The translations under genes and the position numbers were made by a program. A model generated the notes under the pieces. That model did no database searches and was not told the origin of the DNA. It saw only the letters and a list, made by a program, of their open reading frames with translations. Of a DNA stretch of 7,664 nt, positions 2,768 to 7,471 are shown one piece after another. The first letter of the stretch is position 1; each line of letters starts with the position of its first letter. The DNA is from Myxococcales bacterium (GTDB lineage: Bacteria > Myxococcota > Polyangia > Fen-1088): the NCBI GenBank assembly GCA_003155465.1, contig PMCR01000022.1:1-7664 (forward strand). The letters are read 5' to 3'.

Positions 2768-3409
2768 CTAGTAGGTTCCTTGAAGGGTGGCTGCGATTCC
2801 ACCAGTGATCGGTAGCGGGCCGAGGGAAATTTGGGGGCGATTGTCCTTTGCCTTCCAGCCCAGCACGCACATCGTGGTTCCCGCCAGGATGGCCGCTGTG
2901 CCGACCCCGTAGCCGACCCAGGCCCAGGTCTTGTATGAGCGGCGGGTTGAATCCTTGTTGGCGTCGTAGTGCCCCGGCGGGTACATCTCATTCATAAGGC
3001 TGTTGCTCTTCAAGTTGAGCGCGATACCGGTGGCCAACGAGGCCAGGCCCACCGAGCCGACCAAAAGTCCAGCCGTCCGCAACCCGCTACCCCCTTGCCT
3101 CTCTGGAACGGCAGGCGCGGCCAGGACAACCCCGGGCTCGGGCTCCTGCGGTGGGTTCGGCAGAGGCCCCCCTTTGTCGATGACCGGCGCGACGGGCGCC
3201 GCCGCCTTCACCGGTTCTGGCTCGATCCGTGGGGTTGCCGGCTTCTGCACTTCGAGATGGGACTCACATTCGGTCACATGCTTGCGCAGTCCCTCGGCAT
3301 CGCGCGCCGACATGTCGGGGACCTTGCGCTCATATTCGCGGAAGCGATCAAGCGCATCCTGCCACACGTGGTTCTGTTCGAAACAGCGGGGATTGCCTAC
3401 CTGACGCAC
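2768..3409 (-). pseudogene. C-terminal fragment of a disrupted TPR/two-TM envelope protein
   Basis: This is the 3' part of a host gene cut by the element. True host codons begin at 3379 (EQNHVWQDALDRFREY, second half of a TPR). They continue through a Glu/Pro/Ala-rich stretch to two hydrophobic segments, around GLLVGSVGLASLATGIAL and VGYGVGTAAILAGTTM, typical of myxobacterial TPR proteins with a C-terminal membrane part. The open frame extends to a GTG at 3409 that lies inside the left terminal repeat and adds ten residues beginning MRQVGNP. I see no ribosome binding site before that GTG, so translation of this fragment is doubtful. Joined to the other half (7187-7438), it would give about 287 residues. 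The stop lies 4 bases before the lipoprotein start, indicating that the two genes formed an operon. Confidence 0.85.
3380..3387. repeat. Target site duplication, left copy
   Basis: GAAACAGC directly abuts the left terminal repeat and recurs exactly at 7187-7194 next to the right one. An 8-bp duplication is the usual length for IS1595-family insertions. Confidence 0.95.
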
Positions 3410-3420
3410 GCCGCGGAAGG
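3388..3420 (+). repeat. Left terminal inverted repeat (TIR-L)
   Basis: 33 bp beginning GGGGATTGCCTACCTGACGC. It pairs with 7154-7186 in inverted orientation, with two mismatches (TIR positions 22 and 25, C here and T in the right copy). The match stops abruptly after position 33. Read outward, this copy contains a GTG in frame with the host gene fragment. Confidence 0.97.
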
Positions 3421-3478
3421 CTAACGCAATGATGCATTTCTATTTACGGCTCGTTCGCGTGGGTGCTAGGGTCGCTCC

Positions 3479-4276
3479 ATGGGGATACTGCATCGAGCGT
3501 GGAAGCATCTTGCATCTTGGGCCGCTGAGGGAGTGTGGCAGTGGATCATTTGCTACTTCATTTTTACTCCCGGCGCATGGGTTGGGACGACGGCAACGCT
3601 TAGGCACTACGGGGCGCCCATGATCACCGCCTTACTCGTTGGAGCCGTTCTTGCGGTTCCGGTGGGATTGTTCATCGCCTTCTTCCGGCAACACGCCAAG
3701 TTGATGCCAATCGTAAGGGAGTTGCAGACGAAGTTGCACGTCCAGTCGGTTCCTATCTTGGATTCTACCCCTAACGTAGATAGTTCACCCTCTCCCACAT
3801 CCGCGTCTCCGCCGCACTCATTGTTTCCGGTCGCCGCAGTTCTGGCTGCATTGGCCGTGCTCATAATTGGAATAGTAATTTTGGTTCCACATAGCGCCAG
3901 CGTGTCTCAGGAGACTGCAAGCGCGACAGACGGTGGCACGGGGCCGGGAGACATCTTCAATAACTTAGAAGATGTACAAAAGAAGATCCTGCGCACAATG
4001 TGGGACTATCAGAAACAGTTGAGCCCTGGCTATGAGAAGCGCTTTATCATGCGCATCTATCCGGAAACATTTGAGTATTTAGAATTGTATCCACACCTTG
4101 ATGCATTGGTAAAGCGTGGCTATGTCATCTGTACCTATGCGGTGGCAAAACAAGGCAACGTCTGTGTCATTGACAACGGCGGTATTACCTTTATGCAGTC
4201 AATCGGCTCTCTTGCAAATGGTAGCACTTATGTCTTGCCATTCGATTACGTCGAAACTCTGCATCATCGGAACTAG
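3479..4276 (+). CDS. Uncharacterised membrane protein, element cargo
   Basis: 265 residues of unrecognised family. Hydrophobic segments at about 46-69 and 113-137 look like two transmembrane helices, and 18-34 is also hydrophobic. A Ser/Pro-rich loop lies between the two helices (95-112). The C-terminal soluble part (about 163-245) has helical EDVQKKILRTMWDYQKQ, then LDALVKRGYV and a beta-rich stretch with NGGITFM. That order (helices, L..L...GYV, strand, G.TF) resembles a winged-helix fold, but this is only a pattern impression. TAGGG at 3467-3471 lies a good distance before the ATG and can serve as ribosome binding site. The gene is alone on its strand at the left end. Its stop codon shares the CTAG at 4273-4276 with the stop of the convergent small gene. 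Function unknown; a membrane-anchored sensor or effector is one possibility. Confidence 0.75.
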   Translation: MGILHRAWKHLASWAAEGVWQWIICYFIFTPGAWVGTTATLRHYGAPMITALLVGAVLAVPVGLFIAFFRQHAKLMPIVRELQTKLHVQSVPILDSTPNVDSSPSPTSASPPHSLFPVAAVLAALAVLIIGIVILVPHSASVSQETASATDGGTGPGDIFNNLEDVQKKILRTMWDYQKQLSPGYEKRFIMRIYPETFEYLELYPHLDALVKRGYVICTYAVAKQGNVCVIDNGGITFMQSIGSLANGSTYVLPFDYVETLHHRN

Positions 4277-4410
4277 TGTGCCTTGGATGGTCTCTTCTTG
4301 AAAAGAAGGCCGACTGCTTCCGTGAACCGCAACGGATGGAGTGACAAGGGCGGATCGCCCCGAGGTGGGTTTGGGGCCGATGGCTTTGGTTGTGCCTTGT
4401 CCTTCTTCAT
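4273..4410 (-). CDS. Small 45-residue protein immediately downstream of the transposase
   Basis: The frame starts with ATG at 4410, encodes MKKDKAQPKPSAPNPP onward and ends at a TAG at 4273-4275. It is rich in Lys and Pro at the start, with a short LHPLRFTEAVGLLFKKRP segment near the end. The start is only 9 bases beyond the transposase stop. AAGG, which overlaps that stop codon, lies 7 bases before the ATG, a good ribosome binding site that suggests coupled translation. The 3' end overlaps the convergent membrane protein gene through the palindrome CTAG. No family is recognised; a small accessory to transposition is an inference from position only. Confidence 0.65.
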   Translation of the reverse strand: MKKDKAQPKPSAPNPPRGDPPLSLHPLRFTEAVGLLFKKRPSKAH

Positions 4411-4419
4411 GGCTACACC

Positions 4420-5400
4420 TTACCGCGATCCGCGCGTGTCCTGCAAAGAGGGGATATGCCCCGCAATCTTGTAGAGGGTGAGACGGCGGTTTTCAAGACG
4501 GCGAATCGTCTGGACCGTACGTTGGCCGTCGGTGATCTTGCGCGTGTTGTACTTGAACTCGAACTCGTTTGAGTAGCGGGGAAGGTGACCAGAGCTGACG
4601 TGGTGGTGCGTTCCATCCACCTGCCGGCGGAAGTTGCCGAAGTATCCCTCGACTGCGTTGGTCGATGCCATTCGGCCAGTGCTCCGGTCGCGGCGCACAT
4701 ATTCCTCTTCCTGATGGTTGACGGTGTCGTGCGAAGCAAATTCCTGTCCGGGCCACGTGTAGATCGACGATTCGTCAGTGTTGAGGACCGCATCCGACGA
4801 AACGTGTTCTTCCAGCATGTCCGCGACGATCGCGCTGGTGACCTGGGCTTCCGGCATGACGTGGGCGTGAGCCCGTCCGCCACGCTCAACGAAGGCAACA
4901 ACGGCCGTCTTGTTGCCGCGATACCCACGACCCCTTCCGCGTCGCACGCCGCCGATATAGACCTCATCTGCCTCGACGGTGCCAGAGAGGATTTCCGGGG
5001 CGGCCTCGGTCATCGCGGCGCGGATTCGGTGTGAGAGGTGCCAAGCCGAGCGCTTGGCGATCCCGAGCATGCGGTGAAGTTGCAAACTACTGATGCCCTT
5101 CTTGCTCGCGCACATCAGGTGGATGGCCAGGAGCCACTTATGCAGCGGGATCTTGCTGTCTTCCATGACCGTGCCGGTGGTCACGCTGAACTGCTTCTTG
5201 CAGCCGGCGCAGTAGAAGATCGGGCGCGCACGCTTGGAGGACACGGGAGAGACATCGGTGCAGCCGCAGCGAGAGCAGACGAGGCCGGCCGGCCAGCGCA
5301 TGGCTTCGAGAAAAGCGCGGGCAGACTCCTCATTCGGAAAGCGGGTCACCATCTCGACGAAGGAGAGGTTGTTCAAACCGGCCATCATGTTCGTTGTCAT
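4420..5400 (-). CDS. IS1595-family transposase (ISXO2-like)
   Basis: 326 residues, catalysing excision and insertion of the element at its terminal repeats. An N-terminal zinc ribbon has Cys42, Cys45, Cys64 and Cys67, followed by a helical region (about 85-130) likely to contact DNA. The catalytic part shows Asp145 in VEADEVYIGG, Asp209 in LNTDESSIY and Glu251 in the STNAVEGYFGNFRR motif, the expected DDE set for IS1595 relatives. There is no frameshift or internal stop and the length is usual, so it is probably active. The annotated ATG at 5400 has no ribosome binding site. A promoter-like TTGACA/TATACA pair ends at the start codon, so the mRNA may be nearly leaderless and translation might begin at Met5 or Met6. 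It is followed after 9 bases by a 45-codon gene and is divergent from a small ribbon-helix-helix gene. Confidence 0.95.
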   Translation of the reverse strand: MTTNMMAGLNNLSFVEMVTRFPNEESARAFLEAMRWPAGLVCSRCGCTDVSPVSSKRARPIFYCAGCKKQFSVTTGTVMEDSKIPLHKWLLAIHLMCASKKGISSLQLHRMLGIAKRSAWHLSHRIRAAMTEAAPEILSGTVEADEVYIGGVRRGRGRGYRGNKTAVVAFVERGGRAHAHVMPEAQVTSAIVADMLEEHVSSDAVLNTDESSIYTWPGQEFASHDTVNHQEEEYVRRDRSTGRMASTNAVEGYFGNFRRQVDGTHHHVSSGHLPRYSNEFEFKYNTRKITDGQRTVQTIRRLENRRLTLYKIAGHIPSLQDTRGSR

Positions 5401-5427
5401 GTATATGTGTATACAACGTCATGTCAA
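5400..5427 (-). promoter_or_regulatory. Putative promoter of the transposase
   Basis: On the minus strand, TTGACA (5427-5422) is followed by 16 bases and TATACA (5405-5400), the latter overlapping the annotated ATG. A transcript from here would begin inside or just before the first codons, implying a leaderless or very short leader. The boxes match the sigma-70 consensus well, but no start site can be shown from sequence alone. Confidence 0.5.
5407..5414 (-). promoter_or_regulatory. GTATACAC motif upstream of the transposase
   Basis: GTATACAC on the transposase strand sits 6 bases before its ATG. The same 8 bases occur 7 bases before the divergent ribbon-helix-helix gene. The site is also half of a local palindrome GTATA-TGTG-TATAC (5401-5414). 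A shared operator for the small DNA-binding protein is the simplest reading; a shared promoter element is the alternative. Confidence 0.45.
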
Positions 5428-5446
5428 GCGACGCAAGAAGAATGTA

Positions 5447-5474
5447 TTGACAATCGGGTGACGCGGTATACACT
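5447..5474 (+). promoter_or_regulatory. Putative promoter of the ribbon-helix-helix gene
   Basis: TTGACA at 5447-5452 is followed by TATACA (14-base spacer) or, better spaced, TACACT at 5469-5474 (16 bases). The ATG is at 5481, so transcription would start at or near the first codon. The second GTATACAC copy (5466-5473) overlaps the -10 region, a position suited to repression. Confidence 0.45.
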
Positions 5475-5480
5475 TTGAAC

Positions 5481-5663
5481 ATGACACCAAAAGCAGGCAA
5501 GAAAGAAAAGGCGCGACGCGAAACGCCCATGCAGATCCGACTCACCGCAGAAGAGAAGACGATGTTCTCCGAGGCTGCAGAGCGGGATCACCTCAGCCTA
5601 TCAGCGTGGCTTCGACTGGCGGGTATCCACGCTATCGATAACCGGCACAAGCTGGCGGGGTAG
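5481..5663 (+). CDS. Small ribbon-helix-helix DNA-binding protein
   Basis: 60 residues. After a Lys/Arg-rich head comes a pattern typical of the MetJ/Arc/CopG or MobC-like fold: a strand PMQIRLT, helix EEKTMFSEAAERDH and then SLSAWLRLAGIHAI. Such dimers bind short palindromic operators. The ATG at 5481 is preferred over an in-frame TTG two codons earlier, because it follows the promoter-like boxes directly. The gene is divergent from the transposase across 80 bases that contain two GTATACAC copies, so it may repress the transposase and itself. It could also be an antitoxin-like or mobilisation-type accessory, but no toxin partner lies next to it on the same strand. Confidence 0.7.
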   Translation: MTPKAGKKEKARRETPMQIRLTAEEKTMFSEAAERDHLSLSAWLRLAGIHAIDNRHKLAG

Positions 5664-5678
5664 GGATTGTTCGATAGC

Positions 5679-5698
5679 CTCCTAGAGTTGGCTAGGAG
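5679..5698. terminator. Hairpin between convergent genes, possible terminator
   Basis: A perfect 7-bp inverted repeat, CTCCTAG / CTAGGAG with a 6-base loop, lies between the end of the plus-strand ribbon-helix-helix gene and the end of the minus-strand operon. It overlaps the stop codon of the latter. Neither side has a T-run, so intrinsic termination would be weak. Confidence 0.4.
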
Positions 5699-6162
5699 CG
5701 AATAACTGGCATTGGGGCTATGACAACATCCATGTTGTCGACAATGATCTGCCGCAGTTTCCTCTGCACTGTCTTGCTCATTTCCCTACCGCGAACCCAC
5801 GGCTCTCCTCTTCTGTTCATTCTGATTTCTGTGTGGGCTGGATTGGGAGGACTACTAGCATAGTCGGGATCGTGGACCACACTGACCTCGCAGTGCTTCC
5901 TCGAATTTTCGCAATACAACTCAGGGGGCAACACTCCGACAGCAAACGAGCCGACACCGTTTTCCCTTGGATACTTTTGCGACAGAGCGTCCATCGGCTG
6001 GCTGTACTTCGATCGGTTGCATGAGCAATCCGTAATCCTGATGGCCGCGACGCTGACCTTCCCGTCTTGGTCCAGATCTTCGAACGCAACCCTTCGATAG
6101 AGAAGTTCTCTCGGGTCGAAGTTCTGATCGGCTGGGATCTGATCTCGTTCGTCCTCAGCCAT
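5692..6162 (-). CDS. Uncharacterised protein, third gene of the cargo operon
   Basis: 156 residues, soluble, no signal or membrane segment. Notable stretches are RRVAFEDL (23-30), DCSCNRSKYSQPMDAL (45-60), GVGSFAVGVLPP (69-80), KHCEVSVVHDPD (89-100) and NPAHTEIR (107-114). Several Cys and His residues fall in these motifs (Cys46, Cys48, Cys84, His90, Cys91, His97, His110), so a metal site or catalytic centre is possible but unproven. I recognise no named family. The start overlaps the previous gene by 8 bases (ATGGCTGA) and has no clear ribosome binding site of its own, so translation is probably coupled. The tight overlap suggests that this protein and the one before it act together. Confidence 0.75.
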   Translation of the reverse strand: MAEDERDQIPADQNFDPRELLYRRVAFEDLDQDGKVSVAAIRITDCSCNRSKYSQPMDALSQKYPRENGVGSFAVGVLPPELYCENSRKHCEVSVVHDPDYASSPPNPAHTEIRMNRRGEPWVRGREMSKTVQRKLRQIIVDNMDVVIAPMPVIRS

Positions 6163-6724
6163 GCGCCAGATAGTCGACCATTTCGTTGACGAACCAGATA
6201 AGGTTCGAGGCTTCGATCTCTGAGACGATTGGCTCTGAGCCCTTTTCTCGTGTCGTGGTAACTATCTCGCCTGTGTTGTAGCACTCCACGTCCGCGTACC
6301 TGATGCCGGAGCTAATGCACACGATGACGCCATCTTGCGCAGATGCACCCACCTTGGTAGGTTGGATTCCTAAAATAGCAAGCTGCTCTACTACTGACCT
6401 CGCCGACGCGATTGCATTCGCACTGGGAGGTTCTGCGCCGTAGCTATTCCAGCCGGCAGGAAGAGACGCGAGGCTTTTGAATTTCTCCTCCGCCGCAACA
6501 TACCAATCAGGGCGCTGATAGCCTTGGTCAATCATGATCACTCCGGATTCCGTGGCCTCAGATTGGATCTCCTCGGGGAGCAAACTTCCGATGCCGATAT
6601 CGCCAGCATAGCTATAGCGGACGGGAGCGGAGCGCGTGATGACGACCTTTTCGGGCACCTCCGTATAGCGTCTTGTGTCATCCACGATCTCCTCGGGAGG
6701 GCTGGCATAGGCGAGCGCAGGCAT
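6155..6724 (-). CDS. Uncharacterised protein with LPAGWNSYGA motif, second gene of the cargo operon
   Basis: 189 residues, cytoplasmic by appearance. The N-terminal third (about 1-70) looks loosely structured. The core begins with the motif LPAGWNSYGAEPPS (88-101). It continues with a helix ANAIASARSVVEQLAILGI (102-120) and alternating strands including DGVIVCISSG and YADVECYNTGEIV (131-155). The GW(N/D)xYGAxPP style motif followed by a helix and beta-strands looks like a recurring bacterial family of unknown function, from memory and without a search. A good ribosome binding site (TAGGA, 7 bases before ATG) supports the start at 6724. It begins 14 bases after the first operon gene ends and overlaps the third by 8 bases. 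Confidence 0.75.
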   Translation of the reverse strand: MPALAYASPPEEIVDDTRRYTEVPEKVVITRSAPVRYSYAGDIGIGSLLPEEIQSEATESGVIMIDQGYQRPDWYVAAEEKFKSLASLPAGWNSYGAEPPSANAIASARSVVEQLAILGIQPTKVGASAQDGVIVCISSGIRYADVECYNTGEIVTTTREKGSEPIVSEIEASNLIWFVNEMVDYLAHG

Positions 6725-6738
6725 GGTTCTATCCTACA

Positions 6739-7104
6739 TCACTTTTGCTGCTCCGATGTTTTCTTGATCATTCCTTGGAGGATGGGGATTCTCTCTCCAA
6801 GCCACTTGTGAAGGCGCACTGCCACCTCGACATCGAATACTAGATCAACCTCAACCTCGCGAACGACGCCTTTACGCGTGAGCCTTTTCCCCTGGATCTC
6901 ATCACCAAGAGTTCCGTCTGCGTTGACTTTATGTACGACTTGCTGAGGAATCGCCACGCGTTCATTGAAAAAGCTGATCGTGAAGTTGCGTTGGGGGGTC
7001 AGGCCGCCCCAGGCTCCGTCGACGTGGACCACGCGGAAGTGGTTGCTCTTGATGTAGTGAAATACCACTTCCTGCTGATCATCAGGAAGATTATCGTCTG
7101 CCAT
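6739..7104 (-). CDS. Uncharacterised protein with FRVVHVDGAWGG motif, first gene of the cargo operon
   Basis: 121 residues; the ATG at 7104 is chosen because the longer open frame upstream crosses the terminal repeat and the host gene in a different frame. Conserved-looking stretches are VVFHYIKSNHFRVVHVDGAW (13-32), GGLTPQRNFTISFFNERVAI (33-52), and GVVREVEVDLVFDVEVAVRL (79-98) with a terminal KWLGERIPIL. The layout suggests a compact beta-rich fold closed by a C-terminal helix. No transmembrane segment or known catalytic motif is seen and I cannot name the family. AGGG lies close before the ATG as a modest ribosome binding site. The reading frame of the truncated host TPR gene stops 13 bases upstream. 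Confidence 0.75.
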   Translation of the reverse strand: MADDNLPDDQQEVVFHYIKSNHFRVVHVDGAWGGLTPQRNFTISFFNERVAIPQQVVHKVNADGTLGDEIQGKRLTRKGVVREVEVDLVFDVEVAVRLHKWLGERIPILQGMIKKTSEQQK

Positions 7105-7153
7105 GATGCCCTGGTTATCACCCACCCTGATCTTGAGCAAGCGGATACGTGGT

Positions 7154-7186
7154 CCTTCCGCAGCATGCGTCAGGTAGGCAATCCCC
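7154..7186 (-). repeat. Right terminal inverted repeat (TIR-R)
   Basis: 33 bp, reverse complement beginning GGGGATTGCCTACCTGACGC and matching 3388-3420 at 31 of 33 positions. It is followed directly by the second copy of the target duplication. Confidence 0.97.
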
Positions 7187-7194
7187 GAAACAGC
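7187..7194. repeat. Target site duplication, right copy
   Basis: GAAACAGC, identical to 3380-3387, directly abutting the right terminal repeat. Confidence 0.95.
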
Positions 7195-7471
7195 GCCCCT
7201 GGTTGTAGACGTAGGTCGGATCGTTGGACTCCACGTACAGGTCGGCCAGAATTTCGACACCCTTCCGGTAGTCACCGGTGATGCAAGCCTTCTTGGCCGC
7301 CTTCTCCTGCGCCTCTCGGTTCTGTGCGTGGCGCGCTGGCCGGGCACTAGCCGAAGCTGCCATCATCGTGATGGCGAGCGCGGACCATGCAACGCAGGTT
7401 GAGCGACCGGGCCAAAGGTAGTGCCGCAGCATGCGCATATCATACTGCATCGGCTCCATGTTTTGTGCCAA

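Follow-up and report, generated by a model that had tools for sequence, protein, structure and literature searches.

An IS1595-family transporter insertion sequence from a Myxococcales bacterium and its passenger operon, a probable relative of the defence candidate PDC-M32

Insertion sequences of the IS1595 type that carry passenger genes, the transporter insertion sequences (tIS), are an established kind of mobile element, and two of them, tISCpe8 and MTnSag1/tISSag10, are described as mobilisable in the part of PMC5704250 drawn on here. The subject of this report is an element found in a 7,664-nucleotide stretch of DNA (the window) from a Myxococcales bacterium, contig PMCR01000022.1 of assembly GCA_003155465.1, where it occupies 3,799 bp at 3388-7186. 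Similar to the two mobilisable elements, as far as that source portrays them, it combines an IS1595 transposase with inverted ends, an 8-bp target duplication and passenger genes. Unlike them, it has a ribbon-helix-helix (RHH) gene that points away from the transposase gene, together with a three-gene operon, P6-P5-P4, and general family scans of its proteins showed no relaxase-type or resistance family. With P1, P4, P5 and P6 lying inside its ends, the element is a tIS, a known kind. The operon resembles PDC-M32, a defence candidate listed in PADLOC. PDC systems are computational candidates in the portions of PMC11811056 and PMC12988326 used here, and PADLOC matches to PDC-M32A and M32B are tabulated for one Sinorhizobium meliloti prophage in the part of PMC12429752 that bears on them. 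We give an even chance to the reading that this tIS moves a PDC-M32-like candidate defence operon and is built from an RHH-regulated core and exchangeable cargo.

The identity of the element as a transposon is near certain. An earlier sequence-only reading had proposed a complete IS1595-family element at this position with 33-bp ends (31/33), an exact 8-bp duplication and a transposase with zinc ribbon and DDE residues; recomputation gave the same values and showed the transposase to be intact. When the window was scanned for an exact 8-bp repeat around ends with at least 20 of 30 matches, a single pair was found, compared with none in 60 mononucleotide shuffles. Removal of the element and one repeat copy leaves a single 303-codon minus-strand host frame across the site, and because this frame closes without the element, the cargo genes are not ancestral at this site. 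A chance arrangement or an assembly artefact, in which ancestral genes happen to lie between similar sequences, can be virtually dismissed given the empty shuffles, the exact closure of the host frame and the recurrence, described below, of a related core between related ends in a different genome. The intact ends, duplication and transposase are compatible with an element that is recent and possibly still mobile.

The transposase matches PF12762 (110.2 bits, cut-off 27, E 1.2e-31), PF12760 (48.1 bits, cut-off 25.4, E 1.1e-12) and NF033547 (185.4 bits, cut-off 75, E 1.3e-54). It is an ISXO2-like DDE transposase with an N-terminal zinc ribbon, which, together with the inverted ends and 8-bp target duplication, is what characterises the IS1595 family. 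An alignment of four transposases shows no variation at residues C42, C45, C64, C67, D145, D209 and E251; we take the cysteines to be zinc ligands and the acidic residues to form the catalytic triad. The RHH protein matches the NikA-like family PF21983 at 29.1 bits (cut-off 27). Between the two divergent genes lies an inverted repeat with 15-nt arms at 5407-5421 and 5459-5473 (87%), which has a counterpart in a second element, L001 (17 nt, 88%). The left arm closely precedes the transposase start codon, and the right arm is overlapped by a promoter-like TTGACA-16-TACACT at 5447-5474, a site that is only suggestive because the promoter scan found 4 sites where 2.1 were expected. On the simplest reading of this layout, the RHH protein is probably an autoregulated repressor of transposition. 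Its NikA-like match would also suit an accessory protein that binds an origin of transfer (oriT), so that conjugative helpers mobilise the element in the manner of tISCpe8 and MTnSag1, both of which are integrative mobilisable elements in the material taken from PMC5704250. We consider this very unlikely, as the palindromes instead flank the transposase start and general Pfam and NCBIfam scans of the element proteins showed no relaxase-type family.

The comparison with L001 is informative as it separates the core parts of the element from those that are exchanged. A scan of genome contigs yielded this one relative, in a metagenome-assembled genome of Myxococcales bacterium fen_1125, so that the ends recur elsewhere as a unit, there enclosing other cargo and bordered by another duplication. 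The L001 element is 3,966 bp long, with the duplication GAAACTTG and ends that agree at 26/33 positions with each other and at 27-29/33 with those of the window. It shares the transposase (91% identical), the RHH protein (78%), the intergenic region and a P6 homologue (43%). It differs in that its P6 unit is inverted relative to the transposase, P6 is accompanied by a DUF7689 protein (PF24738, E 6.6e-39) and by a protein of 162 aa that has no family, and the end-adjacent membrane protein is unrelated to P1 of the window. Because the core is shared and the cargo is mostly different, the cargo appears exchangeable and the core fixed. Since the transposase, divergent RHH gene and palindromic promoter region are common to both elements, RHH is better regarded as part of the core. 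The sequence-only reading had counted five non-transposase genes as cargo; all five frames are open, but with RHH assigned to the core the tally becomes one core regulator and four larger cargo genes, with one small open reading frame (ORF) added. Among the 30 candidate elements discussed below, RHH occurs in the window and L001 only, save one weak match (0.0039), a small ORF of L001. The duplications GAAACAGC (3380-3387) and GAAACTTG (L001 4083-4090) have the same first five bases, which in two cases is only a hint of a target preference.

The link between the operon and PDC-M32 runs via relatives and profile comparisons. Among members of the P5 family, 4/9 are matched by the PADLOC model for PDC-M32A (best 7.8e-7), with the rows inspected covering the C-terminal part of M32A, while the PDC-M32B model matches 1/7 members of the P4 family (3.4e-5). 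A PDC-M32A search of 377 Myxococcota genomes, the set used throughout, found 17 places in 14 genomes, and profiles were built from cases picked by eye as clear, namely five M32A proteins and seven neighbours of M32B type. In profile comparison, the P5 family scored 80.9% against M32A (E 1.2e-5) and the P4 family 74.8% against M32B (E 2.6e-5). Column-shuffled targets, 30 for each, reached at most 1.1% and 0.7%, and crossed-pair controls gave 1.4%, 0.1% and 1.7%. P4 of the window also matches the M32B profile directly (1.9e-5 in a small ORF set). The operon therefore has a part like the C-terminal part of M32A and a part like M32B in the same gene order as PDC-M32; because the two matches are independent and the order is the same, a common origin is likely, and it appears firmer for P4 than for P5. 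The two systems also differ, since P5 aligns only to M32A residues 268-345, lacking the roughly 260-residue N-terminal part, and the operon begins with a separate P6 gene.

Several results weigh against this connection. None of the PADLOC models matches P5 or P4 of the window at E up to 1, and no ORF of the 30 elements, P5 included, matches the M32A profile at 0.01. The P5 profile finds full-length M32A weakly, with a best value of 0.035 among other weak matches, and the P4-type profile reached E < 1e-4 in only 4 of the 8 loci that contain M32B. One control, P5 family against P6 family, gave an unexpected 24.3% (E 8e-4), and P6 itself is without a match to M32A in profile comparison. P6 was not found in the phage collection, and one plasmid record has it. 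Finally, PDC systems themselves are unvalidated candidates. In favour of a defence reading, PADLOC scans of neighbouring genes at three loci of our own choosing (L033, L051 and L034) gave a STAND ATPase (PDC-M54A, 6.8e-21), a type IIG restriction enzyme (2e-213) beside a weak helicase-type match, and one weak match, respectively. We infer a defence role for the operon, and the element could work as follows. The transposase would act on the 33-bp ends and insert the element with an 8-bp duplication, the footprint of which shows insertion. RHH would bind the palindromes between its own gene and that of the transposase and repress both. Exchangeable cargo would lie between this core and the ends, the membrane protein on one side and P6-P5-P4, a three-gene relative of PDC-M32 whose first gene joins other gene pairs elsewhere, on the other. 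The element would most likely owe its spread to occasional protection of the host by the operon against phages or rival elements. As the three carried genes form an operon related to a suspected anti-virus system, the element may help spread such systems. It is a small, precisely bounded transposon, which ties an uncharacterised operon to a listed defence candidate and supplies natural boundaries for it.

The distribution of the operon bears on whether it is functional cargo. The P6-P5-P4 order is kept in two further Myxococcota genomes, G120 (L032) and G211 (L033), and on a viral contig (L027), where the triplet is near a phage-type integrase; none of the three occurrences is on IS1595. P4 matches 2/377 genomes, both with the triplet, and P5 matches six, of which two have the triplet and four are weak. 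It is conceivable that the cargo consists of passengers acquired by chance, regulatory genes for example, which bring the element no benefit and are being lost or exchanged. The two close copies do differ in cargo, and P5 and P4 occur in only 1 of the 30 elements examined and P6 in 2. This reading is improbable, however, as every frame is intact, the operon spacing is tight and the triplet order persists at the L032, L033 and L027 loci, with P5 and P4 at 26-33% identity.

Beyond the triplets, genes resembling P5 and P4 keep other company. At L047 and L050, a DUF6932 gene is followed by a protein of 448 or 438 aa with a P5-like domain at its end and then by a P4-like gene, while L048 has a P5-like gene and then a P4-like gene, and at L049 nothing was noticed besides a P5-like ORF. 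Compared with the P4 family, the P4-like genes of L047, L048 and L050 score 97.5% (E 8.5e-12). A DUF6932 protein, a long protein with a P5-like end and a P4-like gene also stand in a row at L051 (5457-7938) and L054 (6721-9199), the former with its restriction enzyme after the P4-like gene. The DUF6932 proteins of L051 and L054, presumably nucleotidyltransferase-like, match PDC-M63A. This position of P5-P4 relatives behind DUF6932 proteins, the small and overlapping genes of the operon and the PIN/VapC cargo of two plasmid IS1595 relatives would fit a transposon whose operon works in the manner of a toxin-antitoxin system, as an addiction or stress module that keeps the element stable, and does not act against phages. 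We view such a module as a possible but rather unlikely explanation, since family scans linked none of the three proteins to a toxin or antitoxin family and the remote matches point to a defence candidate.

P6 deserves separate attention as a protein family with 676 database matches at E up to 0.001 and no Pfam model; of the 120 proteins listed, 48 were scanned in Pfam and returned three single weak matches only. In the Myxococcota set, P6 is found in four genomes: G001 (L001), G120, G211 and G129. In G129 (L034, 7633-9180), it is followed by 177-aa and 221-aa genes, an apparent third partner set next to P5-P4 and the 162-aa protein with DUF7689. From these proposed sets we infer that P6 stays constant while the gene pair beside it changes. 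A bolder proposal makes P6 the common core of a modular immune system, as yet undescribed, with interchangeable two-gene sets; PDC-M32 would be one branch of it, and IS1595 elements with an RHH-repressed transposase would be carriers which swap and flip modules between their core and ends. We regard this extended version as speculative and doubtful.

Table 1. Features of the element and its insertion site, in window coordinates
Feature	Position	Strand	Remarks
Host gene, 3' part	2768..3379	-	split by element
Left 8-bp target duplication copy, GAAACAGC	3380..3387	.	exact repeat
Left inverted end, 33 bp	3388..3420	+	31/33 vs right end
P1, 265 aa, membrane protein	3479..4276	+	hydropathy: hydrophobic segments at residues 51-69 and 118-136
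Small ORF, 45 aa	4273..4410	-	9 bases past transposase stop
IS1595-family transposase, 326 aa	4420..5400	-	PF12762, PF12760, NF033547; 91% identical to L001
Divergent promoter region, 80 bp	5401..5480	.	between transposase and RHH genes
RHH protein, 60 aa	5481..5663	+	PF21983; alternative in-frame start 5475
P4, 156 aa, third operon gene, PDC-M32B-like	5692..6162	-	
P5, 189 aa, second operon gene, like PDC-M32A C-terminal domain	6155..6724	-	
P6, 121 aa, first operon gene, large family without Pfam model	6739..7104	-	
Right inverted end, 33 bp	7154..7186	-	31/33 vs left end
Right 8-bp target duplication copy, GAAACAGC	7187..7194	.	exact repeat
Host gene, 5' part	7195..7471	-	split by element

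The remaining properties of the cargo (Table 1) were examined with general scans of the six larger element proteins. Curated Pfam and NCBIfam cut-offs were passed by the transposase and RHH alone, PADLOC gave no match at E up to 1, and PHROGs gave strong matches for the transposase only. P1 found no family in the family-library scans, and the protein that occupies its position in L001 is not related to it. Third codon positions have a GC content of.77 in the transposase,.75-.76 in the two host genes and.66 in RHH, compared with.58-.64 in P1, P4, P5 and P6; in L001 the transposase has.79, RHH.75 and the cargo.49-.62. Because of this difference, core and cargo seem to have different histories. 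Database clusters, from their listings alone, contain 4 contigs for P4, 6 for P5 and 6 for P6. The small ORF at 4273-4410 has a translated match in L001 (59% over 22 residues), and S-L-H-P-x-x-F-T-E-A-V-G is shared with L001 6991-7194. Small proteins that by eye are loosely like it are present in the L015, L016, L017 and L020 elements.

Passenger genes are clearly common among the IS1595 relatives of this element, which agrees with the statement in the sequence-only reading that some members carry them and with the tIS documented in the consulted part of PMC5704250. Transposase matches at 1e-40 or better occur in 10/377 Myxococcota genomes, including that of L001. Ends with an exact 8-bp duplication were sought in 48 loci (the window, L001, 12 Myxococcota stretches, 5 plasmid loci and 29 viral-contig loci), which were chosen by similarity to the window transposase and are not a fair sample. 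Candidate pairs of ends, 1.39 to 5.72 kb apart, were found in 30 loci and none in 18; chance may account for the weakest pairs (15-16 of 20), and L096 and L097 are apparently the same element counted twice. In two alphaproteobacterial plasmid elements of IS1595 type, L039 (693-4105) and L040 (3915-6518), the cargo consists of a PIN/VapC gene together with a hypothetical and a small gene. Transposase relatives are encoded in all 29 viral-contig loci (L073-L101), some of which yield long candidate elements; these may represent insertions with cargo into viral or proviral DNA.

Sushi (SCR) repeats are unusual in bacteria. Beside the interrupted host gene, on the minus strand at 190-2763, the window encodes an 857-aa protein with six matches to this repeat (PF00084, E 1.5e-63), the N-terminus of which resembles a lipoprotein signal.

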